Below, in pieces: positions 28,166-50,049 of a stretch of DNA of 64,000 bases. The DNA is taken from assembly GCA_002049455.2 (NCBI GenBank), contig KV918908.1, positions 1 through 64,000 of the forward strand, in the 5' to 3' direction. The stretch comes from Porphyra umbilicalis (taxonomy: Eukaryota > Rhodophyta > Bangiophyceae > Bangiales > Bangiaceae). The notes beneath the pieces are model-generated. The model was not told the origin of the DNA. It ran no database searches and worked only from the letters and a program-made list of their open reading frames with translations. The position numbers and the translations under genes were made by a program. Position 1 is the stretch's first letter. The number at the start of each line of letters is the position of its first letter.

Positions 28166-28248
28166 TCAGAGCAAACCCTGCAACGTCGGCCCCAAGTCAT
28201 ATTTGCGAAACGTGGCGCAACGTGGCGCAAACGTGTCTCATTATTAAG

Positions 28249-28420
28249 GAAATGGGGCCGGAACGCTCCCGCATCAACGTCTCCGACCCCATTTAGGCAT
28301 CATTTCGCCCAAAGCAAATGACGTAAGTACAACGCATATGTTGCTTTCAGAAATGGGGCCCGTGCCGGACCGACCCCATTCCCGACCGGAAATGGGGTCG
28401 GACCGAAGCCGACCCCATTC
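28249..28420. repeat. Subterminal AAATGGGG / CCCCATT motif cluster, left end
   Basis: GAAATGGGG recurs at about 28249, 28350 and 28388, and its inverse CGACCCCATT at about 28286, 28373 and 28411, in alternating orientation, many with a GTCGG extension. The same core appears near the right end (41,890-42,010). Clustered subterminal motifs are where Harbinger Myb-like proteins and transposases bind, so these are candidate binding sites. Confidence 0.6.
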
Positions 28421-29397
28421 TTCTATGCTCTCTCATTGGTCGAACGATTCGAAATAGTATAGAAGATAGCACGCTTAAGCGAGCAACGTGTGGGTCCACG
28501 ATCAGCCCCGGTTTTTCACAGTCATTCAGAAACTAGAAATTGTCGATCTGGACCACTCCTCTCGAAAGCGGGTTCACGGCTCTCGCCAGATATTTTGTCA
28601 CGGCATGCACAGAGGGAAGCGCGTTGGATCTTTTTGCGCCTGCGTGGCTCCCACGCATCGCTCACAGAGCAATCTGAGAGGGGAGGGGCTGTCAACCCAG
28701 GTGAGCTGCGCCTGCGGAGGGCCTCTCTGGGAGCCCTCGTGGAGGGTGGTCGTTTCACGAGGGCGGCGCGGGCCGTCGACAGCGCCGCGTGGAGGGGCGA
28801 GATTGGGCCGGTCGCTGTGCTACAGCTATTGGGGCGCCCTGACAGGAGCCTGAGGGGGTCCTGCAGCCTGAACGGTCGCGCCTGGATGGCGGGGGCCGCG
28901 ATCGGCACCGTTTGAAGGGGGGTGGCCGCCCAGCCACCGTGCATCAGTGGCCGGGGGCGCCCGCACGAGCGCTGCCTGGGGGGGTGGTGGCGGGGCATCT
29001 CGGCGTGCATCTGCAGTGGGGGGGTGGGCTGGGGTGGCTGTCCGCAGTGGTCGGCCGGGCACGCCATTCAGAGGACGGCACGGGCCGCCCGCTGCTTGCC
29101 ACCGTCGTCGTCACCCCCATCCCGCCGCCGCCGATTTTCGTCCACCCACCACACCCGTGAGCACGGCCGACGCGGCCCCTCCCCCATCGCGCCGGCCACG
29201 CGCTCTGCTCTCACGGCTGGGCTCCATCCCACTCCCCCCCCTCCTCGATCTCGCTGGGCACGCGCGCTGCTCGCACCGCTCGTCCCCCCTCCTCCCCCCC
29301 TCCTCCATTTCCACGTCGCACCAGGCGCCCCTGCTGTTCTTCCCCATTCCCACCCCGCCCCCCACGGGGTCCGGTGGTGTGCGTCCCTGCTTTCCGT

Positions 29398-30984
29398 ATG
29401 GACGTCCAGGAGGAGGAGGTCTCGGCCACCGCCGCCCTGCTGGCCGAGGACGACGGCGCGGACGTTGCTGCTGTGGTGCAGGCGCACGTCAATGTGCTCA
29501 TGGCGGTGCGCCGACGCGCGCGCGCCAAGCGCATCGCGCGACGGTGGCTTTATCGTGGCTCCACCGCGGGGCGCCGTGGCAACAAGCGCCGCGACTTTGC
29601 GGCCGGTGTGCACGCCATTTTGCGAGACTACTTCGGTGTTGGCGGTGTGCTCCCTATCTACGATGACCGGGACTTTGAGACGCGGTTCCGTGTCCCCCGC
29701 GCCGTCTTTCGGCGTATCTATTTGGCTGTTAAGGACGAGCCTTTCTTCCAACAACGCATTAATGCGACGGGCAAGCTGCAAGCGCATCCTCTGCAGAAGG
29801 TAGTGGCTGCCTTTCGAGTGATCGCCTACGGCGAGGCGGCCGACCGAGCGGACGAGTACGTGCGCCTGTCCCGGACGGTGATCGCCGAGTCGACCAAGTT
29901 GCTGATGGAGTTTATTGTCAAGCGATGGGGACCTACCTACCTGCGACGACCGAACCAAGACGAGCTCAACACCATTATGGAGCGCAACAAGGAACGCGGG
30001 ATGCCGGGGTGCATGGGCTCCCTCGACTGTTGCCACTGGGAGTGGCACCAGTGCCCGACGGGGATGGCGGGGGCGTACCAGAGTCGCAAGGGCAAGCGGG
30101 GCATCGTCGTAGAAGCTGTGTGTGACGAGGACCTGTGGGTGTGGCACCTGTTTGTTGGGGCCCCCGGCAGTCTGAACGACATCAACGTCATGCAGCAGTC
30201 GCCGCTGTACCTGGACGTCACTGGCGGCAGGTGGCCGCCTCGCGGCACGCCCTTTACTATCAATGGCCGCACCCGCACGCTACCCTACTACCTTGTCGAC
30301 GGGATTTACCCGCGCTACGCTTTTCTGATGTCGCCACACCCCAAGCCGTCCACCGAGGAGCAGACGACGTTCAACCGCCTCCAAGAGGCCATCCGAAAGG
30401 ACGTGGAGCGGCTGTTTGGCGTATTGATGAAGCGCTTTCACGTTGCGCTCCACCCTGGGCGCTACCGCTCTGTGTCGCAGCTAGTGACGACCTACAAGGC
30501 CATTTGCATTCTGCATAACATGTGTGTGGAGAGTCGACGTAGCAACTTTTTGAGTCGCCGTCGACGTGCGGTGGGGGGTGATGGTGGGACTAACTGTGGC
30601 GTAGGTGGCGATGCTGGCGGCGGGTCAGATGGGGGGGAAGGACAGAGCGGTGGGACACCAGCTGGCGGCATTGCTGCCGCCGGGGCAGTTGCACCTGGCG
30701 GCGGCAGTCCCGGTGGCGTCGGCGGTGTTATTGCTGCCGCCGGGGCTCCAGCACCTGGCGGTGGCGTCAGCGGCGTCGCTGCGGCAATGGATAACATTGA
30801 CGCCGTCGGCAACGCGCCCCCTGCTCTTAATCCCGTCGCCCACCCGCCTGCCGCTGGCATGGCTGCCATTTTTGATGCTTGGGCTGAGACGCAGAATGTG
30901 CAGGAGAACGAGCGCCTGCGAGCTGACCTGACCGCGGACATTTATCGCGACCGAGGCGAACTGCTTGCCCCGTACATTGGGTGA
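29398..30984 (+). CDS. PIF/Harbinger DDE transposase, intact
   Basis: 528 residues, single frame. It belongs to the plant-type Harbinger DDE nuclease family, which cuts and pastes the element. The catalytic triad is visible: Asp210 in GSLDCCHWEW, Asp301 in YLVDGIYPRY and Glu338 in RKDVERLFGVL. Family blocks surround them: GIVVEAVCDEDLWVWHLFVG, APGSLNDINVMQQSPLY and AICILHNMCVE. The N-terminal 70 residues are basic (AVRRRARAKRIARRW), fitting DNA binding. The last 150 residues are Gly/Ala-rich with a short acidic helical end (QENERLRADLTADIYRDRGE). Start: Met at 29398; an upstream in-frame Met at 29374 adds eight residues. Compared with the decayed copy at 4.4-6.7 kb no stop or shift is present. 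A T-rich hairpin motif follows the stop at 31014. Confidence 0.93.
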   Translation: MDVQEEEVSATAALLAEDDGADVAAVVQAHVNVLMAVRRRARAKRIARRWLYRGSTAGRRGNKRRDFAAGVHAILRDYFGVGGVLPIYDDRDFETRFRVPRAVFRRIYLAVKDEPFFQQRINATGKLQAHPLQKVVAAFRVIAYGEAADRADEYVRLSRTVIAESTKLLMEFIVKRWGPTYLRRPNQDELNTIMERNKERGMPGCMGSLDCCHWEWHQCPTGMAGAYQSRKGKRGIVVEAVCDEDLWVWHLFVGAPGSLNDINVMQQSPLYLDVTGGRWPPRGTPFTINGRTRTLPYYLVDGIYPRYAFLMSPHPKPSTEEQTTFNRLQEAIRKDVERLFGVLMKRFHVALHPGRYRSVSQLVTTYKAICILHNMCVESRRSNFLSRRRRAVGGDGGTNCGVGGDAGGGSDGGEGQSGGTPAGGIAAAGAVAPGGGSPGGVGGVIAAAGAPAPGGGVSGVAAAMDNIDAVGNAPPALNPVAHPPAAGMAAIFDAWAETQNVQENERLRADLTADIYRDRGELLAPYIG

Positions 30985-31013
30985 CGCGATGTAGGGCGTA
31001 GTAGAGTAGACAC

Positions 31014-31056
31014 AAAGGTTTTTTTTTCCCGCTGGGCAGGGTTTTTTTTCCTACAC
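31014..31056 (+). terminator. T-rich hairpin motif after the transposase stop
   Basis: AAAGG, nine T, CCC-GCTGGGCA-GGG (a small hairpin), eight T, CCTACAC. The same arrangement in inverted orientation follows the Myb-like gene at 37877-37920. It sits 30 bp after the transposase stop. A role in 3'-end formation is inferred from position and from conservation between the two genes. Confidence 0.45.
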
Positions 31057-31269
31057 ACCTTTGCTACGATCGTTCGAATGGCGGGAGGCCCCCAGCGCCG
31101 CTAACCCGGAGTGACTAGCCGACGGGTCCGGCGGGGGATCCCCCGGGCTGCCTCGGCCGCGGTCGTCGCCGTCGTGAGGGCCGCCCGCGCCGGCCCGCCG
31201 CGGCCTCCACACGGTGGCAACCCGTGGTCATGCTGGCGCTCGCGGCTCCCGCGCCGGTGGCCGCGCAGC

Positions 31270-31764
31270 GCCCGACGGCGGGTCGCCGCCGCCGCCGCCG
31301 CCACCGCCGCCACCGCCAACGCCGCCGCCGCCGCCGCCGCCCCCGCCGCCGCCCCCGTCCCCGCCGCCGCCCCCGCCGCCGCCCCCACCTTCGCCGCCGC
31401 CCCCATCGCCGCCGCCCCCGCCGCCGCCCGCACCGCCACCGCCGCCCCCGCCGCCGTCGCCGCTGCCGCCTTCGCAGCCGCCGGTGCAGCCGCCACCACA
31501 GCTGCTTCCTCCGCCGCCGTTGACCGCCACCGACGCCGCCCACTGCGCTTGGGCGGCGTCGAGGCTGTCGGCGAGTGCAGGTGCGGCGGCGGGAGGCCAG
31601 GCGACGGCTGCACAGCGGCAGCCACCGAGGGGGTCGGCACGGAGGTGGCACGCAGCGGCAGCGGGCCGCCGCTGTCGTCGCCGCCGCCGCCGCCGCCGCC
31701 GCTGCCCCCGCCGCTGCCCCCGCCGCCACCGCTGCCACCACCGCCACGGCCAACGCCGCCCCTG

Positions 31765-31795
<31 letters not shown>

Positions 31796-31887
31796 TGCCC
31801 CCGCCGCTGCCCCCGCCGCCACCGCTGCCACCACCGCCACGGCCAACGCCGCCCCTGCCGCCCCCGCCGCCGCCGCCGCTGCCCCCG

Positions 31888-31918
<31 letters not shown>

Positions 31919-32010
31919 TGCCCCCGCCGCTGCCCCCGCCGCCACCGCTGCCACCACCGCCACGGCCAACGCCGCCCCTGCCGCCACCGCCGCCGCCGCC
32001 GCTGCCCCCG

Positions 32011-32041
<31 letters not shown>

Positions 32042-32331
32042 TGCCCCCGCCGCCACCGCCGCCACCACTGCCATGGCCGCCGCCGCCGCCGCCGCCGCCC
32101 CCGCCACCGCCGACGCCGCCGCCGCCGCCCCCGCCACCGCTGACGCCGCCGCCGCCGCCGCCGCCGCCCCCGCCACCGCCGTCGCCGCCGCCGCCGCCCC
32201 CGCCACCGCTGACGCCGCCGCCGCCGCCGCCGCCGCCGCTGCCCCCGCCGCTGCCCCCGCCGCCACCGCTGCCACCACCGCCACGGCCAACGCCGCCCCT
32301 GCCGCCACCGCCGCCGCCGCCGCTGCCCCCG

Positions 32332-32362
<31 letters not shown>

Positions 32363-32471
32363 TGCCCCCGCCGCCACCGCCGCCACCACTGCCATGGCCG
32401 CCGCCGCCGCCGCCGCCGCCCCCGCCACCGCCGACGCCGCCGCCGCCGCCCCCGCCACCGCTGACGCCGCT

Positions 32472-32507
<36 letters not shown>

Positions 32508-32560
32508 CCCGCCGCCGCGGCCGCCGCCGCCGCCGCCTTTGCCGCCGTCGCTGCTGCCGC
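31270..32560. repeat. CCG-rich minisatellite array
   Basis: CCG/CCA/CTG triplets with a larger unit (CCGCTGCCCCCGCCGCTGCC, then ACGGCCAACGCCGCCCCTGC) recurring near 31,715, 31,800, 31,918 and 32,236. A block of about 320 bp appears to be duplicated. All forward frames give polyproline, polyalanine or polyarginine, so this is not treated as a gene. Confidence 0.8.
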
Positions 32561-32869
32561 CGTCACAGCCGCCGCCGCAGCTGCTGCCGTCGCCTTCGCC
32601 GCACATGGCGCACTTGGCCGCCAGCGACGCCGCCCACTGCGCTTGCGGAGTCCAGCTGGCGGCGAGCGCACGTGCGGCGGCGCGAGGGTACGCAGCGCCC
32701 GCGCCGCGGCGGCGGAGCGGCTCCAGGCGACCAGGCTTCAGGGATTGCTGGCGGTGGCGGCTCGGGAGCGCGGGCGGGGCAGGATTGCGGGTAGCAGCAG
32801 CGTGGGCAGGGCGGCCTGCGGTGGGGAGGCTTTCGTGCGAAGAGCCGCAAGATGATTGCGCGTGCGAGC

Positions 32870-33960
32870 TTCGCAAGATCTTGTGGCTCGACACGCTGCC
32901 CATAGACCGCATTAATAAACTTGCTTCTGCCGTTATCGCTCGTCACAAAAATCCCGCACAAACAATTCATTGCCACATAAGGTGCTGACGATGACACAGT
33001 CCAATGACATGGCGTCACTCAAAGAAGATACGCCAGTCACGAACGTGTGGATGGTCATGCGATCCCTCACATGACGACAACGACCAATCAAAACACCTGT
33101 ATCTATTATCGATGCAAGGCTTTCAACCACGTGTTTGATGAATAACAACTGTCAGTAACCCCATTGGTTATCGTGGCTCTCGAAAGTTCTTGTCCGACAG
33201 TTGACGGTCGCCAGCAGCTCACGTGACTACTTACACAACTTCAAGAACCAACCACACCACTGGTATGTACCATACATAGCAAGACTTGGCCCCCCGTCAA
33301 TTTCAATGAACATGTCTAAGCCGTTCCATTGGTTGTCGCGGCGCTGTTTCAATGCCCACAGAGGGCGAACGACAGAAAATCACGCGGTCCCCGACGTACA
33401 CTTATGAAGAACCAACAAGAACACGTGCATACATCTGACACTGCACAGCTCTGAACCGTGTGGTTGTTTAACAGCAATTCTGCACACCCCATTGGTTGCT
33501 GTCGCGCAGTTTGTATGACGCCGTCGAGTGGATGGCTGCGAATGAGATCTACGGCGGCGACAGCGGGACCCTCACAGAGCGGGGGGGAGGCGGTTTGTCA
33601 TCCGAAGATCGCTCCCTGGGGGGGCGATCAGATGGGGCGATCTGTGGTGAACGATCCCGCATTGAGTAGGGCGTCAGCGTACGGGTGGCGCGGTTCTTCG
33701 GACAAGCATTCCTTTCTCTTGCAATACATTCCGCACTTTATTGAACACGAACTCACGAAGATGAGAAGAAGTGTACATGTCCACGCTTGAAACCAGTCAT
33801 AGAGACGGCGGATTCGGGTGACTCTGCGAGCCCAATACAAAGGCGATGGAATGTCCCCACTGATGCATCCAACCTGAGTCGCGGAGGGCTTTCTGGTGCT
33901 GCCCAGGTGGTCTCTGCCGGGCAGTGGCCGTGACCGTCACCCACGGCACCCCAGGCAGAC
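32870..33960. promoter_or_regulatory. AT-richer region upstream of the H3 gene with repeated CCATTGGTT boxes
   Basis: Composition drops sharply in GC compared with its flanks. CCATTGGTT (an inverted CCAAT box) occurs near 33162, 33330 and 33493, about 165 bp apart and each within similar surroundings (GTTATCGTGG, GTTGTCGCGG, GTTGCTGTCG). A forward GACCAATCA lies near 33083. CCAAT boxes are common in histone promoters. The spacing suggests degenerate tandem copies of one upstream element. No gene is supported here. Confidence 0.45.
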
Positions 33961-33970
33961 CCACTCCAGG

Positions 33971-33976
33971 TATATA
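33971..33976 (+). promoter_or_regulatory. TATA box of the H3 gene
   Basis: TATATA in GGTATATAGAGGAG, about 340 bp upstream of the H3 start codon, in an otherwise GC-rich context. Transcription would begin near 34,000 and give a C-rich leader. Confidence 0.5.
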
Positions 33977-34314
33977 GAGGAGCCCATCCCAGCCATCTCC
34001 TCTCGGCGTCATCCGGCAGCATCGTCCCTTCTGCCCATCCCCTTCCCCATCCCCGCCCCGCCAACCTCCACTGGCGGTGCGGCCTGTCCCCGCCTCGCCG
34101 GCTGTGTTCTGGGGTTGACCTGTCCCCCCTGGCACCCTGCCCCCTTCCCCCCCCCGCGCCCCCAGCCTCTACCGTTGGTGGGACCTGGCCCGGCCGCGCT
34201 GACTGTTGTCTGGCGTGGACCTGCCCCCCCCCTCACCCCGCCTCAACTCCCCTCCTCCTGCCCCCCCGCTCCTCCCCCACCCGTGGCGGCTACCACACCT
34301 GCGCCCCGCCAGCC

Positions 34315-34728
34315 ATGGCGCGGACGAAGCAGACGGCGCGGCGGTCCACTGGCGGCAAGGCCCCGGCTTCTCTGGCCAGGGCCGCCGCCAGGCGGGCGAC
34401 CAAGTCCAAGGCCGGTGGCAAGGCCGCAGTCAAGCGCCGTTACCGGCCTGGGACGGTCGCCCTGCGGGACATCCGCAAATTCCAGCGGTCGGGGGAGCTG
34501 CTTATCAGCAAGCTCCCCTTCCAGCGGCTGGTGCGCGAGATTGCGCAGGAGTACACCAACTCTCCTCGCTTTTCGGCGTCAGCTGTACTGGCGCTTCAGG
34601 AGGCGTCCGAGGCCTACCTGGTGGGCCTCTTCCAGGACGCTCAACTGTGCGCCATCCACGGAAAGCGTGTGACTGTCATGACCAAGGACATTCAGCTTGC
34701 CCGCCGCATCCGTGGCGAGCGGGCGTAG
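34315..34728 (+). CDS. Divergent histone H3 carried inside a Harbinger element
   Basis: 137 codons, no intron. The N-terminus [17 protein letters not shown] and the fold ([20 protein letters not shown], then [28 protein letters not shown] and [14 protein letters not shown]) identify H3. K4, S10, T11 and K14 are kept. K9 is Arg; the AARKS site is AARRA, so K27 is Arg and S28 is Ala; K56 is Arg (FQRSGE); the DFKTD loop is EYTNS, so K79 is lost. The K18-K23 stretch is altered, and the tail before RYRPG is rewritten ([12 protein letters not shown]), leaving K36 ambiguous. Loop 1 is not lengthened, so it is not a typical CENP-A. Length is one residue over canonical H3. The C-terminus ends exactly at GERA. 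It lies between the convergent transposase and Myb genes. No metazoan-type histone 3' stem-loop is seen. Confidence 0.95.
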
Positions 34729-35202
34729 CTTTTGCGTTGTGGGAACATGTTTGCATTGAGTTTACTACATTCATTTACTTCTTTGGGAGACGTGGTGCTC
34801 GAGTGGGATGGAGTCCAAGTAAGACGTGGGACGTAGGTGCAAAAAAAAAAGAAACATCCGGAGAAGCCGCGGCCCTCGCACCCGCGTCGCCACCCACGGG
34901 AGGCAAAGGGAGAACCACCGCCGGCGCGTCGTGCCGTCGGCGCCGTCGGCGGCAGCCACCAGCGCGTGCAGCCCCGCGGCGGCGGCGGTGGCGGCGGCGG
35001 CCGACGGGCGGCGGCCGTGTGGGGTGCGGGGACTGCGGCACGAGACGCCGTGGAGTGGCCACGGGCACGCCACCGCCGCTTGCGCCGCCGCCGCCGCCGC
35101 CCACGCCACCGCCGCCAACGGCAGTATGGCCGCAGGGACCCGCCGCTCTTGCGGCCAAAGCCCCCCCGCCAAAAGCGTTGGCGACGCGCCGCCCGTGCCG
35201 CC

Positions 35203-35935
35203 GCGGCCGCCATTGCCGACGCGCAGGGGCGGGTGCCGCGCCACGATGCGGCAGCGGCGGTGGCAAAGACCCCCCCCCCCCCCCCCCCGCCAACCCCCCC
35301 GCCGCGCCGCCGCGGCCGCCATTGCCGACGCGCAGGGGCGGGCGCCGCGCCACGATGCGGCAGCGGCGGTGGCAAAGACCCCCCCCCCCCCCCCCTCCGC
35401 CAACCCCCCCGCCGTGCCGCCGCGGCCGCCAGTGCCGACGCGCAGGGGCGCGCGCTGCGCCACGGTGCGGCAGCGGCGGTGGCAGAGACCCCCCCCCCCC
35501 CCCCCCCGCCAACCCCCCGCCGTGCCGCCGCGGCCGCCAGTGCCGACGCGCAGGGGCGCGCGCTGCGCCACGGTGCGGCAGCGGCGGTGGCAGAGACCCC
35601 CCCCCCCCCCCCCCCGCCAACCCCCCCGCCGTGCCGCCGCGGCCGCCATTGCCAGCGCGCGGGCGCCGCGCCACGGTGCGGCAGCGGCGGAGGCAAAGAA
35701 TCCCCCCCCCCCCCCGCCGCCAACCCCCCCGCCGTGCCGCCGCGGCCGCCATTGCCGACGCGCAGGGGCGGGCGCCGCGCCACGATGCGGCAGCGGCGGT
35801 GGCAAAGACCCCCCCCCCCCCCCCCCCCGCCAACCCCCCCGCCGTGCCGCCGCGGCCGCCTGTGCCGACGCGCAGGGGCGCGCGCTGCGCCACGGTGCGG
35901 CAGCGGAGGTGGCAGAGACCCCCCTTCCCCCGATC
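35203..35935. repeat. Tandem array of about 120-bp units separated by poly-C runs
   Basis: About seven units, each with GCCGCGGCCGCCATTGCCGA, GCGCAGGGGCG, CACGATGCGGCAGCGGCGGT and GGCAAAGAC followed by 13 to 20 C and CGCCAACCCCCC. Units alternate between two subtypes (GCCATTG/GGCAAAG and GCCAGTG/GGCAGAG). The poly-C lengths differ between units. Open frames on both strands are compositional. Confidence 0.85.
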
Positions 35936-36720
35936 CCCGCCACCCCCCCCCCCCAATCAGCCCGCGGCCCTTCCCGTCGCCGTCGGCCGCACACGGCACC
36001 GACCGCCCGCCGCCGTCGTCCCCGCCGCGCTTCGCCGCCAACAGCGTCGGCGGCGCGCTGCCCGTGTCGCCGCCGCCAGCGTGTTCGTTGCGTCACCGGG
36101 CGCGATAACGCCGCGCCGCGGCCGCAGCAGCGGCGGCGAGGGTAGAAAGCTCTGCTGCGCCGCGCTCGCGCCGCACTGGCCGCCCGGCAGCGGTCGGCGC
36201 AGCGGGCGCGCCGCGCCGCCAGTGCCGGCCCACGACCCCCGCCGCTGGCGGTGCGGCAGATCGTTGTGGGAGGGGCGGCCTTCGCGCGGGGCTGATCCCC
36301 ATGCGGGAAAGCGAACATCCCCCGCGCCCTCTCGTTCCATTTGAGCGGTGGCGTTGAGATACGAAGCACGGACAGCAAGACATGTGCATGTATTTGCGCC
36401 ACAAAAGTTGAGAACGCGAGACGGGGTCTTACGGGGGCTGTACAGTCAGTCACGCGACCTATAATTTGAACATGCCCACATACTCCAAAAACAACACCGA
36501 TTTCGGCAGAACTGTTTTTATTTTATTGTCCCACTGTCATGCTGGCCGAGAACATTCGATGAAATGTACTCGGCGCTCACCGCTCGCCCGTGTTCGCTTG
36601 CGGCTCCGAACTCGGGCCTGCGGCGACGTGCGAACGGGCGGCCCACACCGGGCAGCATCGCTCGCCCGCGTCTACCGCTGCCCGCCTGTTGCCCCCCGCC
36701 GTCGCCCGCGGGCTAGCGCC

Positions 36721-37840
36721 GCGGTCCCCTCGCCCGCGGCTGTTGGTGCCCGCGGTTGCCCCCGCGCTTGCGCCGCCGTCTGCGCGCTCGCGGCTGTCGC
36801 CGCGTGCCGTCGCCCCGGCGCTGGCGCCGCGGTCCCCTCGCCAACGGCTGTTGCTGCCCGCGGTTGCCTCTGCGCTGGCGCCGCGGTCCCCTCGCCCGCG
36901 GCTTTTCGTGCCCGCGGTTGCCCCCGCGTTTGCGCTGGCGCTTGCTCGCTCGCGGCTGTCGCCGTGTGCCGTCGCCCCGGCGCTGGCGCCGCGGTCCCCT
37001 CGCCCGCGGCTGTTGGTGCCCGCGGTTGCCCCCGCGCTTGCGCCGCCGTCTGCGCGCTCGCGGCTGTCGCCGCGTGCCGTCGCCCCGGCGCTGGCGCCGC
37101 GGTCCCCTCGCCAACGGCTGTTGCTGCCCGCGGTTGCCTCTGCGCTGGCGCCGCGGTCCCCTCGCCCGCGGCTTTTCGTGCCCGCGGTTGCCCCCGCGTT
37201 TGCGCTGGCGCTTGCTCGCTCGCGGCTGTCGCCGTGTGCCGTCGCCCCGGCGCTGGCGCCGCGGTCCCCTCGCCCGCGGCTGTTGGTGCCCGCGGTTGCC
37301 CCCGCGCTTGCGCCGCCGTCTGCGCGCTCGCGGCTGTCGCCGCGTGCCGTCGCCCCGGCGCTGGCGCCGCGGTCCCCTCGCCCGCGGCTGTTGCTGCCCG
37401 CGGTTGCCACTGCGCTGGCGCCGCGGTCCCCTCGCCCGCGGCTTTTCGTGCCCGCGGTTGCCCCCGCGTTTGCGCTGGCGTTTGCTCGCTCGCGGCTGTC
37501 GCCGTGTGCCGTCGCCCCGGCGCTGGCGCCTCGGTCCCCTCGCCCGCGGCTGTTGGTGCCCGCGGTTGCCCCCGCGCTTGCGCCGCCGTCTGCGCGCTCG
37601 CGGCTGTCGCCGCGTGCCGTCGCCCCGGCGCTGGCGCCGCGGTCCCCTCGCCCGCGGCTGTTGCTGCCCGCGGTTGCCACTGCGCTGGCGCCGCGGTCCC
37701 CTCGCCCGCGGCTTTTCGTGCCCGCGGTTGCCCCCGCGCTTGCGCTGGCGTTTGCTCGCTCGCGGCTGTCGCCGCGTGCCGTCGCCCCGGCGCTGGCGCC
37801 GAGGTCCCCTCGCCCGCGGCTGTTGCTGCCCGCGGTTGGG
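36721..37840. repeat. 270-bp tandem array, just over four copies
   Basis: GCGGTCCCCTCGCCCGCGGC recurs at 36721, 36991, 37261 and, with one change, 37531, an exact 270-bp period. Each unit is built from 108 + 54 + 108 bp subunits that all begin with GGTCCCCTCG and contain GCCCGCGGTTGCC. 270 is divisible by three, and long frames stay open on both strands. The frames encode Ala/Arg/Pro-rich repeats without a known domain. Confidence 0.9.
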
Positions 37841-37876
37841 CCGCAAGGTCGTCTGTGTGCACCGAGAAAGACATAA

Positions 37877-37920
37877 GTGTAGGAAAAAAAAAATCCCGAA
37901 GAGGGATAAAAAAAACCTTT
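37877..37920 (-). terminator. T-rich hairpin motif after the Myb-like gene stop
   Basis: On the coding strand: AAAGG, eight T, A, TCCC-TCTTC-GGGA, ten T, CCTACAC. It matches the motif that follows the transposase stop at 31014-31056, in opposite orientation, and lies about 60 bp after the Myb-like stop codon. Confidence 0.45.
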
Positions 37921-37979
37921 CGTTGTCACCGAGCTGCTGCTACATGTCACTAAGCACAAAGCAATACACAGTCGCTACG

Positions 37980-39626
37980 CTACTCAGTGTCCGTGGTGGT
38001 GGTCGTCGTCGTGTCAGACTCGCTACTTTGGTCAAGGCCGCGGGTTGTATCCAGCTGCTTGCTGAGAGCCGCAGAAGCGGCGCGCTGCTTCGCGGCTTGC
38101 GACTTGCGGCCACGCTGGTTGTCGCCCCCCCTGCTGCCGCGCGCCGGCGGCGCCGCCGGCGACTTCGCCCCCGCCGCCAGAGCCGTTGCAGCAGCAGTAT
38201 CTGCTGCCACACGCGCCGCCGGTGGGTCCTCCCCCGGCGGCGCGTTAGCTCCGGCGGCAGAGCCGGCCGCCGGCGGCGCCGACGACGACGCATCAGCCGC
38301 GAGAGTGGTGACTTCCATGGCGGCCACGCCGTCGCCAACTTCCACAACATGGATCTTCTTGGCAGCACTGCGCGCCGGCGGCGCAGGCGTGGGAGCCGGT
38401 GCAGGGGGCGCCGCCAGGCCAGCAGCTTGCATCATCTTGAGCATAACAGCCTGCCGGTACTGTGCCGCCTCGGGCGTGTGACGCATCGAGGGAGAGTCAA
38501 AAAAGCAAAGCGCAGTGCGCTCTTGCTGCGCAACGGTCAACTTGTCCACCGCCGCCGTGCTCGCCTTGACCTGCTTCTCCATTCCAGCGTCCTCCGACCG
38601 CATCAGCTTGGCGGCCTTGATGCCGCCCGGGCGGCTCTGATACCCCTTGTTGCGCGAGTTCGGGCTGCTCGTGCTCCCGCTCTCGCCGTCCTCGTCTGAA
38701 GAGTCGCCCACGTCCACACTCGCGTCGTCCGCCGTGTTGGCCGCGCCGCTGAACTTGTCAGATGTGCGCAAAACGCGCCAGCACCCCACCCACTTGCAAT
38801 GCGCCAGTTTGGCTTTGCGTTTGGCCGTCTTGCCCTTGCGCTTGTCCTTCTCCCGGTCGCTGCGGATGGACTCGTAGATGTCCAGCGAGCAGTACCGCGC
38901 GACCGCACCGCTGATAATGTCCTCCTCCGTCAGGTTCCCGGTAGTTTGCATGTTTTTGACGGCCAGGTAGTGAGAAGTAAACGAGCTCACCCCCTTCCGG
39001 ATCTTCTTGAACTGCTTCTCCAACGCACTGACGTTGCGCTTGACGCGCAGGGGCCCCTTCTTGGTCATCAGGTCCGTCCACTTCTCGTGCACAGCCGCCC
39101 ACAGCTGGTTCTTGGAGCGACCAGTGGCGCTCACAGGGTCCTCGCTCACCTCCAGGTAGGCCCTACACAGCGGCACGCGGTCCTCGTCCGTCCATCCCAG
39201 GCTGGAGCCCATGGACTTGGGGAGGTTGTAGTTCACTGCTGGAACGGCGACGTCAGGTAGAGAGGGGCCTGCTGGGGAGGCTGGGGGGGAGCAGGCACCA
39301 GCACAAACGTCGAGGGGGGCGGGGCTTGGTGGCCGCCTACCACGTACAGAGGGTGGCGAGCTGCCTCCTGCGGCGTCGGCTGCGGCGTCGGCTGCGGGGC
39401 TGGGTGGCTCCCGACCACGTACAGAGGTTGGCGCGCTGGCTCCTGCGGCGTCGGCTGCAGCGAGGGCTGCGGCGGCGCGGGCAACAACATCAACGGCAAA
39501 GGCGTGCTCTGCGGCTGCCCCGTCGTCAACGCCCACTGGTACGCGAGCCCGCCGTGTGGCTTGGCGGGTGACTCGCCGCTCCAGAGCGCCGGACGGTGGC
39601 ACACCGGGTACGGCGGTGGCCGCCAC
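37980..39626 (-). CDS. Harbinger Myb/SANT-like partner protein
   Basis: 548-codon frame. The recognisable domain starts near the Met of MGSSLGWTDEDRVPLCRAYL (about 39,210). It continues with helix-rich blocks (KNQLWAAVHEKWTDLM, RNVSALEKQFKKIRKG, NLTEEDIISGAVARYCSL) and CKWVGCWRVLRTSDKF, then an acidic Ser-rich linker and a C-terminal block (TALCFFDSPSMRHTPEAAQY). This is the accessory DNA-binding protein of plant-type Harbinger elements. It faces the transposase, as in the 4-9 kb copy. The N-terminus is uncertain. In the annotated frame it is Ala/Pro-rich, but the overlapping frame 39,233-40,024 is Pro/Gln-rich with a repeated PLYVVG motif and could be the true upstream exon, spliced near TTCCAGCAG at about 39,233-39,240. 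Confidence 0.8.
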   Translation of the reverse strand: MAATAVPGVPPSGALERRVTRQATRRARVPVGVDDGAAAEHAFAVDVVARAAAALAAADAAGASAPTSVRGREPPSPAADAAADAAGGSSPPSVRGRRPPSPAPLDVCAGACSPPASPAGPSLPDVAVPAVNYNLPKSMGSSLGWTDEDRVPLCRAYLEVSEDPVSATGRSKNQLWAAVHEKWTDLMTKKGPLRVKRNVSALEKQFKKIRKGVSSFTSHYLAVKNMQTTGNLTEEDIISGAVARYCSLDIYESIRSDREKDKRKGKTAKRKAKLAHCKWVGCWRVLRTSDKFSGAANTADDASVDVGDSSDEDGESGSTSSPNSRNKGYQSRPGGIKAAKLMRSEDAGMEKQVKASTAAVDKLTVAQQERTALCFFDSPSMRHTPEAAQYRQAVMLKMMQAAGLAAPPAPAPTPAPPARSAAKKIHVVEVGDGVAAMEVTTLAADASSSAPPAAGSAAGANAPPGEDPPAARVAADTAAATALAAGAKSPAAPPARGSRGGDNQRGRKSQAAKQRAASAALSKQLDTTRGLDQSSESDTTTTTTTDTE

Positions 39627-39899
39627 GCGGAAGACCAGCTACCGGTGGGGTCGTACCCACCGGTTGGCCACGGCTCGCCCGCGCTCGCGTACCCGTGGGT
39701 GAACGAGGACGGGGGTGGCGGCGGCCAAACGCCGTACGAACGCCGGTGATCGTCGACCGGTGGCTCCGGCGGCCAGCACCTTGGGTCCTCAAACGGGCCC
39801 GCCGGTCGTCGCGGGGGGCTCCAGCGAGGGGATCCGTGTCCGGGACCCGCCAGTCGTCGCGGAGGGCTGCACCGTCGAGGGCCCCGTGGGGCGCCCGTT

Positions 39900-42064
39900 G
39901 GTCCTCGCTGCGGGCTCCACCACGGGGGGGGGGGGGGGCCTGTGGGGGGCCCGCCGGGCGTCGAGGGCGGCTGCGCCAAGGGGGCCCGCGAGGCGGGCCC
40001 GCTGCTCGACGAGGCGGGCTCCACCGACGGGGATAGTCGCCGCCGGCTTGAGGGTGATAGCGCCCGTCGTCGTCGACGCGTCGACGAACACGTCGGTCGT
40101 CAGGATCGGCGCGGTCAGCGTCAGGTCCGAGGCGGCGGGGATGAGGAGGGCAGGGCAGCCGGTGTGGTGCCGGAGGCCGGCCGCCTTGATTAAGCGGCCG
40201 GCCAACACCCCGGCCGGCAGGAGGGGGGCGGGAGTGATTGCGGGGAGGGGAGGGCCCGAAAGCGCGGGGCGGTGGGGGGGAGGCGCGTACATGGAGCCGT
40301 CCTCCCTGGGACCAGCGAAGCTCGTTGACCCGAGGCGGGAAGGGCGGCAGGGTGCAGCGCACCGTTCAGCAGGTGGGGGGGGGGGGGGGGGGGCGTCCGT
40401 GGTGCCGTGGTCACACGGCCCCGCACAGGTGCAAGGCGGAGAGGGCGGGGTGGCAGCGCGACCGTTGCGCTGCCGCTGCGCTCGGCGTCGTCGCGTGTCG
40501 TTGGCGCCCTTCACACGCGTCATGAGCGCGGTTACAGAGGGGGGGAGGGGTGGGCGCGGTGGGTGGAGGGGAGGGGTGGGCGGGATGGCAGCCGGAGCGC
40601 GCGCGCTGCACAGACGTCCCACCACACCGGCGCGATTGCGCACACAGAGGAGACGCGTCCCCGCCGCCCGCCCAATCCCACCTGCCGTCCGACGGCGGTT
40701 GAGCGAGTGTGGGGGGACTGCGTCAGCCTGGCCCGCCCCGCAGGAGACCTGGCTCCCAGAAACTGGTCACGGTTGAGAACCGACCAGCGCGCATGCGTCT
40801 CGTCGTCCCACGTGCAGCCCGTCCACAGAGGCGCCGTGCCCGCCCGATAAAATATGAACGAGCGGGTGGGACGAGCCGGAGAGACCCGCCACGGCAGCCT
40901 GACAACGCAGACCCGTTTACAGGCGGGAATCATACGCCCCTACGCCACACACGTTGGACGGCTGGGGGGTCGAGCGGCACGCGTCAGACTGACACGCCGG
41001 GCGCGGCACACGTCGGACGGCTGAGGGGCCGCGAGGCGGCCCCTGACGAGTCGCGGCGCTGAATGCCGTCACGCCTCCTGAGCCAGCGAGGGCGTTGGCG
41101 CGGCGGCCGTTCCAACGTCAAAAGGATGACCAGTTGGTCACGTGACCGGCTGGCCATCCGTTCTGAGGCGTCGCCGTGTCCACCCAATGCGCAGAGCGCT
41201 TCGCACCCCTCCAGTGGCCCACTCACGCACGATCTCATCCGATGACGCGACCCAGCTTCAACCGAGCATTGTGCAAGTGGCACCGAAACCGACAGTTTGT
41301 GGCGTCGACTAGTCACCGAAAGTGCAGCTTTTGAGAAAAGTGATGCCATCCAGGACGACAGATTGGTTCGATTCACTGGATCAGCCAATGACTGCACTTC
41401 CCTCCAAACTGGGCGGTTTCAAAACAGCTCCCGAGAGTGTCAACGGCAACGACATCTGACCTGTTGATATCTCGCGACGAGCCTTCCGCACAATGCGGAT
41501 CGTGCCAGTGGCGACGCCCGCTCTCCAGTTTCCCCGCCCAGCCGCTTACCGCTTCTTCTGTGGCCCGATCCAATCCGTTTACAATCGACAGGACTGCGCA
41601 CGAGGAGATCGGATTCTTCCCAGGGGCCTAGTTCCAATGAGGTGCCCGATTTATGTCGTGGCCGTGCCAGGTGTCGGCCCGTTCGTCCCTTTGAATGCCT
41701 CTTTCTTCGACGTTGTCATCGGTTTCGACGATTATTAGCGGCATATCTGGCGCTTGACGAGGACGTGGCAATCTCACCGCGACTGTTGGGCACACTTTCC
41801 GGACAACTTTTCGGTGGTTTCGTTTCATTAAGCGCTGATCGAGATCCCTTAGCGCTCCTTCGCTTTCATTCGGATTTGGACTACCAGAATGGGGCTACAC
41901 ATAACCCAGCAATGACGACCCCATTCAGACCGTCTCGTGGCTCGTTTCAGACAGCTCGATGCCCAACTACATCGCGTCTGGCCCCAAACAGGGCCCCCAG
42001 AATGGGCTCTCCATTCAGCATGCCACACGTTGCGCCTCTAGATTCCCCAATTGGAAGATGGGAT
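39900..42064. other. Right flank of the Harbinger element
   Basis: Promoter side of the Myb-like gene and right subterminal DNA. Contains G runs at about 39,922-39,936 and 40,376-40,392. AATGGGG/CCCCATT motifs at about 41,890, 41,918 and 42,000 match the left-end cluster. No additional gene supported. Confidence 0.45.
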
Positions 42065-42087
42065 CGACGTTGCAGGGTTTGCTCTCA

Positions 42088-48018: not shown

Positions 48019-48720
48019 CCCCTACGGCTGCCCGCCGCCCCACGGCTGCCCGCCGCCCCACGGCTGCCCGCCGCCCCACGGCTGCCCGCCGCCCCACGGC
48101 TGCCCGCCGCCCCACGGCTGCCCGCCGCCGGCCACCCCGCGGCCGCCCCGCGGCCGCCCGCCGCCCCGCTGCTGCCGGCCGCCCCACGGCTGCCCGCCGC
48201 CCCGCGGCTGCCCGCCGCTCCGCCGCTCCCCGCCCACCTGCCGCTGCCCGCCGCCCCGCCGCTGGCTGCCGCCCCTCGGCTGCCGGCCGCCCCTTGGCTG
48301 CCCGCGGCCGGCCGCCCCGCCGCTGGCTGCCGCCCCGCCGCTGCCCGCCGCCCCGCCGCTGGCTGCGGCCCCGCCGCTGCGCGCCGCCGGCCGCGCCGCC
48401 GCTCCCCTCCCCCCCGCCGCTGCCCGCCGCCCCGCCGCTGCCCACCGCCGGCCGCGCCGCCGCTCCCCTTCCCCCCGCCGCTGGCTGCCGCCCCGCGGCT
48501 GGCCGCCGCCCCGCTGCTCCCCTCCCCCCCGCCGCTCCCCGCCTACCTGCTGCTGCTCGCCGCCCCGCCGCTGCCCGCCGCCCCGCGGCTGCCCGCGGCC
48601 GGCCGCCCCGCCGCTGGCTGCCGCCCCGCGGCTGCCCGCCGCCCCGCTGCTCCCCTCCCCCCCGCCGCTGGCCGCCGCCCCGCCGCTTCCCGCCGCCCCG
48701 CCGCTCCCCGCCTTCCCACC
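48019..48720. repeat. GC-rich minisatellite inside the fold-back element
   Basis: Six direct copies of CACGGCTGCCCGCCGCCC at 48,019-48,130, followed by degenerate CGCCGCTGCCCGCCGCCC-type units to about 48,720. Long Ala/Arg/Gly frames on both strands are compositional. Confidence 0.8.
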
Positions 48721-50049
48721 GCTCCCCGCCCCCTCGCTGCCCTCGCGGGCGGCCGGCGGTGGCCGGAGGCGGCACCTCTTTTGGGGGGTGGCCGGCGACG
48801 GTGGCGACCGGCGGCCGCTGCTGGCGGGAGGAGCGGCCGGAGGGGAGGGAAATCGGGCACAGCGGTTGGCGTCAGGGTGGGCTGTCGCCCAGGGGGCTGA
48901 ACGGCCTCGGTGCCTGGGGCCGGCCATTGCTGGGGTGGGCGGGCGGTCGGTGAGGGAGGCGGCTGGTGGCCGGCGGCGGTGGGGGTGGTCAGTGGAGGGG
49001 GTGGCCGGCGGCGGGGGTGGCCGGCGGCGGGGGTCATCGGCGGTGGGGTCGATTGGATGCATGTCTGGGGGACACATAGCGACTTCCAGGGATAACACAG
49101 AGTTGTCTGGCTGCGTGCTACCTCTATGGGCGACTCGTAGGCACGAAACTGGGGTTCTGACTTGTATGGAGGCACACTACGCTCAGTGGGCATTCTACGA
49201 CCGTGCTGGTGTGGGTTTTTAGGGTCCGTTAAGAGTACATGATGTAGCAAAGCCAACGCACACAGAAAGTTGGCCAGCAGATAGGCCGGGCACCGTGGGG
49301 AGGTAGCGGCATGTCGGGTCCCTGTGAAGTTGAAGGGGCGAAAATCGTAGGAAGGAAGCGTCTGTACGCTTAGCCACTCGCTTTTTCGTTCCCAGGACCC
49401 TTCAAAGCACCACGTACAAGTCTCTTTAGAAAAATGGTGTTTTGGTCAAGTTCCGCCCGGACATGTCGTTCGCTCCTCCCTCTTGCACCGGACGGAAGCA
49501 TGTAACATGGCGATGACCAGACTATACGGACCCCGACCAAAGCTGCACAAAATAGGTACAGGGTACTGTAGGAGATGTGCTGTGCTGTTTTTTTCGCAAG
49601 AAAACATGCAGAACTGCTGTAGGCAGCAAGAGAAGCGCAGAGCGCATCCCACTGGATTAAACAGTGTCAGAGAAAACACGTCATCCACTGGACTGAGCAG
49701 TGTCTGTGCCGATCTGCCGACTCGACGGTATCTGAAACACTGTCAGAGGGTGGCCATGCACACTGCGGGGTGGTATGATTATATCTCTACCCTCGACTGC
49801 TGTTTTCCTCCACTGCCGCTGCCTCCCCCCACTGCCGCTGCTTTCTCCCAGTGCATCAGCCTCCCTCCACCGCCGCTGCCTCCCTCCACCGCCGCTGCCT
49901 CCCCACATCGCTGCTGCGCTCCCCCATCCCCGTTGCGTCCCCCGATTCCTGCGGCCTTCCCCCTTTCCTACTGCTTCCCCTCTTCGCTGCTGCCCTTCGT
50001 CACAGTTTCTGGCCCTCCCTACCAGGGCTCCGACCCCCACAACTGATAC

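Follow-up and report, generated by a model that had tools for sequence, protein, structure and literature searches.

PIF/Harbinger transposons encode a PF04827/PF13359 transposase and a SANT-type second protein, and have short terminal inverted repeats (TIRs) and a 3-bp TNA target-site duplication, which is usually TWA. In the red alga Porphyra umbilicalis, we found a transposon family that shares the transposase, the TIRs and the duplication, has a putative SANT-type second gene, and adds a conserved histone H3 gene between the two genes. A similar gene content has been described in Pyrenophora tritici-repentis, where a TIR-bounded DNA transposon of the hAT superfamily combines its own transposase with an H3-like gene, H3L, and one additional ORF (PMC3538342). 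The parts of that account available to us report ESTs and, for the reference genome, 26 H3L copies that are very similar to one another, and ask whether altered chromatin aids transposon amplification (Manning et al. 2013, PMC3538342). In the available parts of the work on Pseudocercospora fijiensis and its relatives, the captured H3 is described as RIP-inactivated and mostly truncated (Dhillon et al. 2019, PMC6710886). Histone sequence also lies within Helentron-Cq-32A of Culex, but this is a rolling-circle element, and the portion of its description available to us lists fragments of H4 and H15 that are interrupted by stops, frameshifts and indels (PMC4067079).

The Porphyra family is a Harbinger family in a red alga, whereas the Pyrenophora case is a recent, near-identical expansion of a hAT element in a fungus (PMC3538342, available parts). 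Its Harbinger transposase and 3-bp duplication set it apart from the fungal hAT elements. We tested selection on the Porphyra H3, while no such test appears in the sections of the Pyrenophora account available to us (PMC3538342). Among the papers listed in a literature search that covered few subscription journals and no bioRxiv, the only histones in transposons were those of the fungal hAT elements and the fragments in Culex; no Harbinger with a histone was found, and no transposon histone was described as lacking K9 and K27. The sequence-only reading, made without searches, knew of no described Harbinger with a histone cargo. The principle is not wholly new, since fungal hAT elements with an H3 were already known. 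Because both superfamily and host differ from those cases, the Porphyra capture appears independent of them, which suggests that uptake of H3 recurs among DNA transposons. What sets the Porphyra case apart is its superfamily, the host lineage, the selection over a deep divergence and perhaps the loss of K9 and K27.

Architecture of the Porphyra element

The window, which is the whole 64-kb stretch of P. umbilicalis DNA that was analysed, contains a complete PIF/Harbinger element of 13,916 bp (28169-42084). As the sequence-only reading had described, the element is bounded by perfect 20-bp TIRs, GAGCAAACCCTGCAACGTCG at the left end (28169-28188, plus strand) and its reverse complement at the right end (42065-42084, minus strand), and is flanked by TCA target-site duplications (28166-28168 and 42085-42087). 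Short TIRs with a 3-bp duplication are what is found in PIF/Harbinger elements. The same reading had seen two open transposition genes, and these were confirmed. The transposase is an open frame of 528 aa (29398-30984, plus strand) that matches PF04827 (E 2e-60) and PF13359 (E 7e-16), as expected of the Harbinger kind, and contains DDE-type motifs; we take its likely catalytic residues to be D210, D261 and E337. Convergent to it lies a SANT/NAM-associated partner of 410 aa (37980-39212, minus strand), with a match to PF14303 just above the cut-off (E 1.4e-6) and one to Myb_DNA-bind_4 below it (E 0.002). Two EukProt proteins that carry Trinity transcript-assembly names (P0157 and P0185) are SANT partners 65-66% identical to that of the window. 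From these names, genes of this type are apparently transcribed in at least one eukaryote.

Between the two transposition genes, and in the same orientation as the transposase, lies an intact H3 gene (34315-34728, plus strand). It is a single open frame of 137 aa that has the length and domain of an H3 (PF00125, E 5.9e-39), with arginine at the positions of K9 and K27. Among solved structures its best relatives were ordinary H3s, matched in sequence over the full length (E about 1e-54). The transposase gave six matches to solved structures, none of them convincing (best E 0.05), and the SANT profile gave none. A scan of NCBIfam returned one weak match, to the H3, and Rfam returned no matches at gathering scores.

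The H3 gene was also said to have its own TATA box, and a TATA-like site, TATATAGA, is present 344 bp 5' of the ATG (33971-33978, plus strand). All four other clade A copies with an intact H3 that were read have TATAAAGA at -342 to -345; clade A is the subfamily of the window element. The site was absent from the 700 bp upstream of H3 in three copies checked from the second subfamily, clade B, in the decayed copy C211 and in two host H3 genes. Much of the remaining DNA of the element is G+C-rich repeat. A G+C-rich simple-repeat stretch (31100-32700) separates the transposase from H3 and has no counterpart in the clade B copies compared, and a tandem-repeat and G+C-rich stretch (35100-37850) separates H3 from the SANT gene. 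Contamination was considered and rejected, as three of the nine scanned window ORFs outside the element match ordinary families: a triose-phosphate transporter, a Tic22-like protein with TPR repeats and a PLP enzyme.

Mobility of the family and capture of H3

The TIR pattern, with up to three mismatches, occurred 680 times in the genome, versus 19 times for a reversed control pattern, and so is not a chance pattern. These 680 TIR-like ends far outnumber the full elements, of which there are tens in the whole genome, and this suggests many short non-autonomous derivatives. TIR pairs were drawn from 100 listed matches of the 680 (86 exact and 14 with one mismatch), and 61 of the 100 were entered into the pair test. 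The whole list of 100 contained 25 facing neighbours, 24 of them less than 16.5 kb apart and the 25th, on C33, 30.2 kb apart. In each of these 24 closer pairs from the list of 100, the 3-bp duplications at the two ends are equal. Shuffled pairs gave a mean of 9.1 equal duplications and a maximum of 18 in 20000 shuffles, where the search pattern itself fixes the T and the A of the duplication and leaves the middle base alone free. In contrast to the usual TWA, the duplication was TGA/TCA in 19 of the 24 pairs. H3 was present in 19 of these TIR-bounded copies and all three genes in 16, while no H3 was detected in the other five (C6, C16, C76, C173 and C265; 4.7-13.5 kb long).

A related empty site provides a further view of mobility. 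When the flanks of the H3-carrying copy C79 are joined with one TGA, they match the window without a break at 48623-49124 (466 of 502 positions identical), with the corresponding TCA on the plus strand at 48872-48874. An empty TCA site had been proposed as a check in other strains; the site that we found is empty for the C79 copy, but it belongs to a related repeat copy and is not the orthologous locus or the same locus of another strain. Over 3.4 kb, C8, C28 and C94 share 99.6-99.9% identity in their H3 regions, and the right end of the window element is 100% identical to that of the C64 copy over 1 kb, so these are recent copies. With a related empty site and near-identical dispersed copies, the family is mobile as a DNA unit.

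Genome-wide, Harbinger-type H3 sequences occupy 51 places, comprising 42 full-length copies, 38 of them free of stops, and nine fragments. These places were picked by hand from 79 search rows, after removal of five host H3 rows, 16 that belong to a more distant group of H3s, two further weak rows and five additional pieces. A family transposase upstream or a SANT gene downstream was found at 47 of the 51 places; neither was detected at the remaining four, two of which hold a full-length H3. In nine copies, read by eye from the search tables, all three genes are full-length and stop-free. Elsewhere in the genome there are further copies that share both the ends and the H3, as the proposal of a Harbinger that moves H3 as a unit had predicted, and an H3 at a fixed host position outside the transposon was not found in this genome. 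The equal duplications in all 24 pairs, together with the empty site and the 51 dispersed places, rule out a host H3 locus that merely has a transposon nearby. No relatives were confirmed in viral contigs.

We next considered the gene order. Since only the best 82 of 1056 transposase candidates and the best 102 of 562 SANT candidates were scored, the resulting counts are lower bounds. Among these best-scored candidates there are at least 60 convergent transposase-SANT pairs. H3 lies between the two genes in 25 of the 28 pairs whose transposase is at least 79% identical to that of the window. A sister clade (C231, C167, C56, C326 and others), with transposases 68-78% and SANT partners 52-62% identical to those of the window, has H3 between the genes in none of 32 pairs. 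Its median transposase-SANT gap is 1.6 kb, versus 6.5 kb in the H3-bearing clade. With 1056 transposase and 562 SANT candidates at first look, this genome seems to carry a very large load of Harbinger elements.

In a tree of 32 H3s, a branch supported at 100/100, in a bootstrap that had not settled, separates the 19 transposon-type H3s from all others, and the host H3 falls among canonical H3s. The capture of H3 looks single, probably in the common ancestor of the present H3-bearing subfamilies, as judged from gene order and from this tree. Several captures were rejected because the tree gives one transposon-H3 group, with the same caveat on the bootstrap. The reading of H3 as captured cargo is supported, and the wider comparison adds that H3 is a conserved third gene of the whole family and no fresh cargo.

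A second dispersed H3-like family is present in the genome, with an N-terminus about 100 residues longer than that of H3 (MGRTKTPATRS...). Its nine places (L066:1501-2211 on C83, C121, C390, C61, C39, C1, C12:464315, C2:451441 and C150) are 67-100% identical over the histone part, while the N-terminal extension falls to 51% in some, and no scored Harbinger transposase or SANT gene lies near them. Further H3-like places (C137, C268, C281, C37, C240 and C17:290760) match the core of this longer family at 53-57%.

Selection on H3 and its lost lysines

Between the H3s of the window (clade A) and of C58 (clade B), dS was 0.69 and dN 0.049, a ratio of 0.071 (bootstrap 0.030-0.129). Comparing clade A with four stop-free clade B copies gave an H3 dN/dS of 0.07-0.15. 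Within clade A, the H3s of the window and C94 differ by 13 synonymous changes and one non-synonymous change (dN/dS 0.03). Between the window and C82, dN/dS was 0.134 for the transposase and 0.252 for the SANT partner; the H3 value comes from a different copy, C58, because the H3 of C82 is broken. The transposase frame of C82 is open but two likely catalytic residues are changed, so that its dN/dS may be raised. When one and the same copy, C32, was compared with the window, dN/dS was 0.11 for H3 and 0.284 for the SANT partner.

Among clade B copies, H3 dN/dS ranged from 0.45 to 1.7, and some close clade A pairs gave 0.4-0.75. These raised within-clade ratios are as for copies that would have been freed from constraint and be decaying after insertion. 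Matches of at least 80 bp between the window and the internal parts of clade B elements (L050, L057 and L058) were confined to the three genes and, for the transposase and the SANT partner, to at most some 450 bp of upstream sequence. The match at H3 (34305-34732) corresponds almost exactly to the ORF. The two clades also resemble each other at the outer ends of their elements (82-88%). As judged by dN/dS between the subfamilies, selection acting via the elements is shown to keep the H3 protein intact.

The host has four H3 genes, two on C17 and two on C540, all with K9 and K27. The host H3 at L051 (C540:3790-4193) is split over two frames, which is either an assembly error or a pseudogene. 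All 14 transposon H3 copies of this genome that were aligned have arginine at both positions and thus no modifiable K9 or K27. We extended the comparison to 66 transposon-like H3 proteins, sorted by overall identity and consisting of these 14 and 52 from databases, with some genes included twice. Of the 64 that have a residue at position 9, 60 have R9, and R27 was found in 62 of 66. Among 80 canonical-like H3 proteins, the counts are 73 of 75 for K9 and 78 of 78 for K27. A decayed fragment pair (C132/C399) has proline at position 9. The transposon-like H3s mostly keep K4 (58/63) and K14 (59/64), as well as K64, K115 and K122 in the core, and are also without K18, K23, K56, K79 and R63.

The R9 and R27 codons are CGG in all 14 copies aligned, and columns 9 and 27 are averagely conserved, ranking 68 and 61 of 137 among 59 distinct proteins. 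Identical codons and average conservation do not amount to selection for arginine itself. Since K18, K23, K56, K79 and R63 are lost as well, more than the silencing sites has changed, and the wider loss could reflect a general freedom from marks. GC pressure was rejected as the cause of the lysine-to-arginine changes, as the host H3s of the same genome keep their lysines; relaxed constraint remains compatible with them.

Possible roles of the element H3

We propose that the element H3 may resist silencing of the chromatin of the element, or act more widely, and so keep the transposase and its partner expressed. We give this reading a probability of roughly 45%, held below even by the wider lysine loss. 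An autonomous-looking Harbinger family captured H3, apparently once, and has kept it as a third gene beside the transposase and the SANT partner. The element-made H3 would enter nucleosomes via its conserved histone fold, and with arginine at K9 and K27 such variant nucleosomes could not carry H3K9 or H3K27 methylation. Arginine at these positions is not a poison like a lysine-to-methionine change and would only dilute the marks. Silencing would then be resisted in the element's own chromatin, or more widely in cells that express the element, so that the transposase and its partner would stay expressed. In this chain we infer expression, nucleosome incorporation, escape from methylation and a benefit to the element. 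Against such a role, the sister clade spreads without H3, and no H3 was detected in five of the 24 TIR-bounded copies. As described in the available parts of the respective reports, H3K27me3 is repressive and lies on 50% of repeats in Cyanidioschyzon merolae, a red alga that is not Porphyra (PMC5405695), transposon expression is raised in H3K9R flies (PMC9406493), and PRC2 has been proposed as an ancestral repressor of transposons (PMC8788455).

Sequences of the E(z) CXC-SET type and VEFS-box sequences are also present in the P. umbilicalis genome. We counted 76 scattered places with an E(z)-type CXC domain (outside the window, for example, C117:3271-4654, C57:275478-276868, C86:95185-96575 and C71:275213-278074), and at 71 of these a SET domain lies downstream at a distance of up to 700 nt. 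The VEFS-box (Suz12) was matched at 26 places, and in 23 cases a CXC was no more than 25 kb away. With 76 preSET_CXC and 26 VEFS matches so dispersed, these searches are no clean test of a host PRC2. All 76 CXC places are more than 15 kb away from every scored Harbinger transposase and every Harbinger H3. These PRC2-type genes look like they are carried by another multicopy, possibly mobile, repeat family, and H3K27 methylation may be contested in this genome by mobile elements on both sides. The fuller account, in which a DNA transposon would have evolved a silencing-proof H3 that keeps K4, K14 and the histone domain and was selected for escape in chromatin, with repeats that carry PRC2 genes perhaps contending over H3K27, is one that we put forward only tentatively, at odds of about one in three in our estimation.

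Alternatively, the H3 could serve transposition itself, in the machinery or in its targeting. In this case, the SANT partner or the transposase would recognise nucleosomes with the variant H3, which would mark the element or the target DNA, and the loss of K9 and K27 methylation would be a by-product. Some SANT domains bind histone tails. The fixed order and orientation of H3 between both transposition genes (25 of 28 pairs) and an H3 dN/dS below those of the transposase and SANT partner in the pairs compared speak for this explanation. It is unlikely, however, considering that the sister clade is multicopy with no H3 in any of its 32 pairs, so that Harbinger transposition as such needs no H3.

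We regard as quite unlikely a dominant interference, in which the variant would titrate H3 chaperones or upset histone supply or the cell cycle in favour of the element. The 38 full-length, stop-free copies against four host H3 genes would supply a high dose if expressed, but interference does not predict the joint loss of K9, K27, K18, K23, K56 and K79 with K4 and K14 kept. Use of the variant by the host, for example in one life stage, with the family kept as a gene reservoir, would fit the strong purifying selection on H3. It is very unlikely, as the selection pattern is that of an element, conserved across lineages and decaying among old copies, and only four of the 51 H3 places, two of them full-length, lack a detected transposase or SANT gene. 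A neutral passenger or pseudogene, captured by transduplication and without function, is the known fungal outcome in Pseudocercospora, where the available parts of the report describe the hAT-captured H3 as inactivated (PMC6710886), but in Porphyra it is already contradicted by the low dN/dS (0.07-0.15 between clade A and stop-free clade B copies, and 0.03 between the window and C94) and by the open frames, with 38 of 42 full-length copies stop-free and kept by selection.

Resistance to silencing remains our preferred reading of the element H3. Transposons are often silenced via histone modification. Here, the main sites of silencing have been stripped from a histone, and the protein has been preserved by selection over a dS of about 0.7. 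The idea is testable with one variant protein. If it is true, a histone of its own would give a selfish element a counter-measure that acts directly on the nucleosome.
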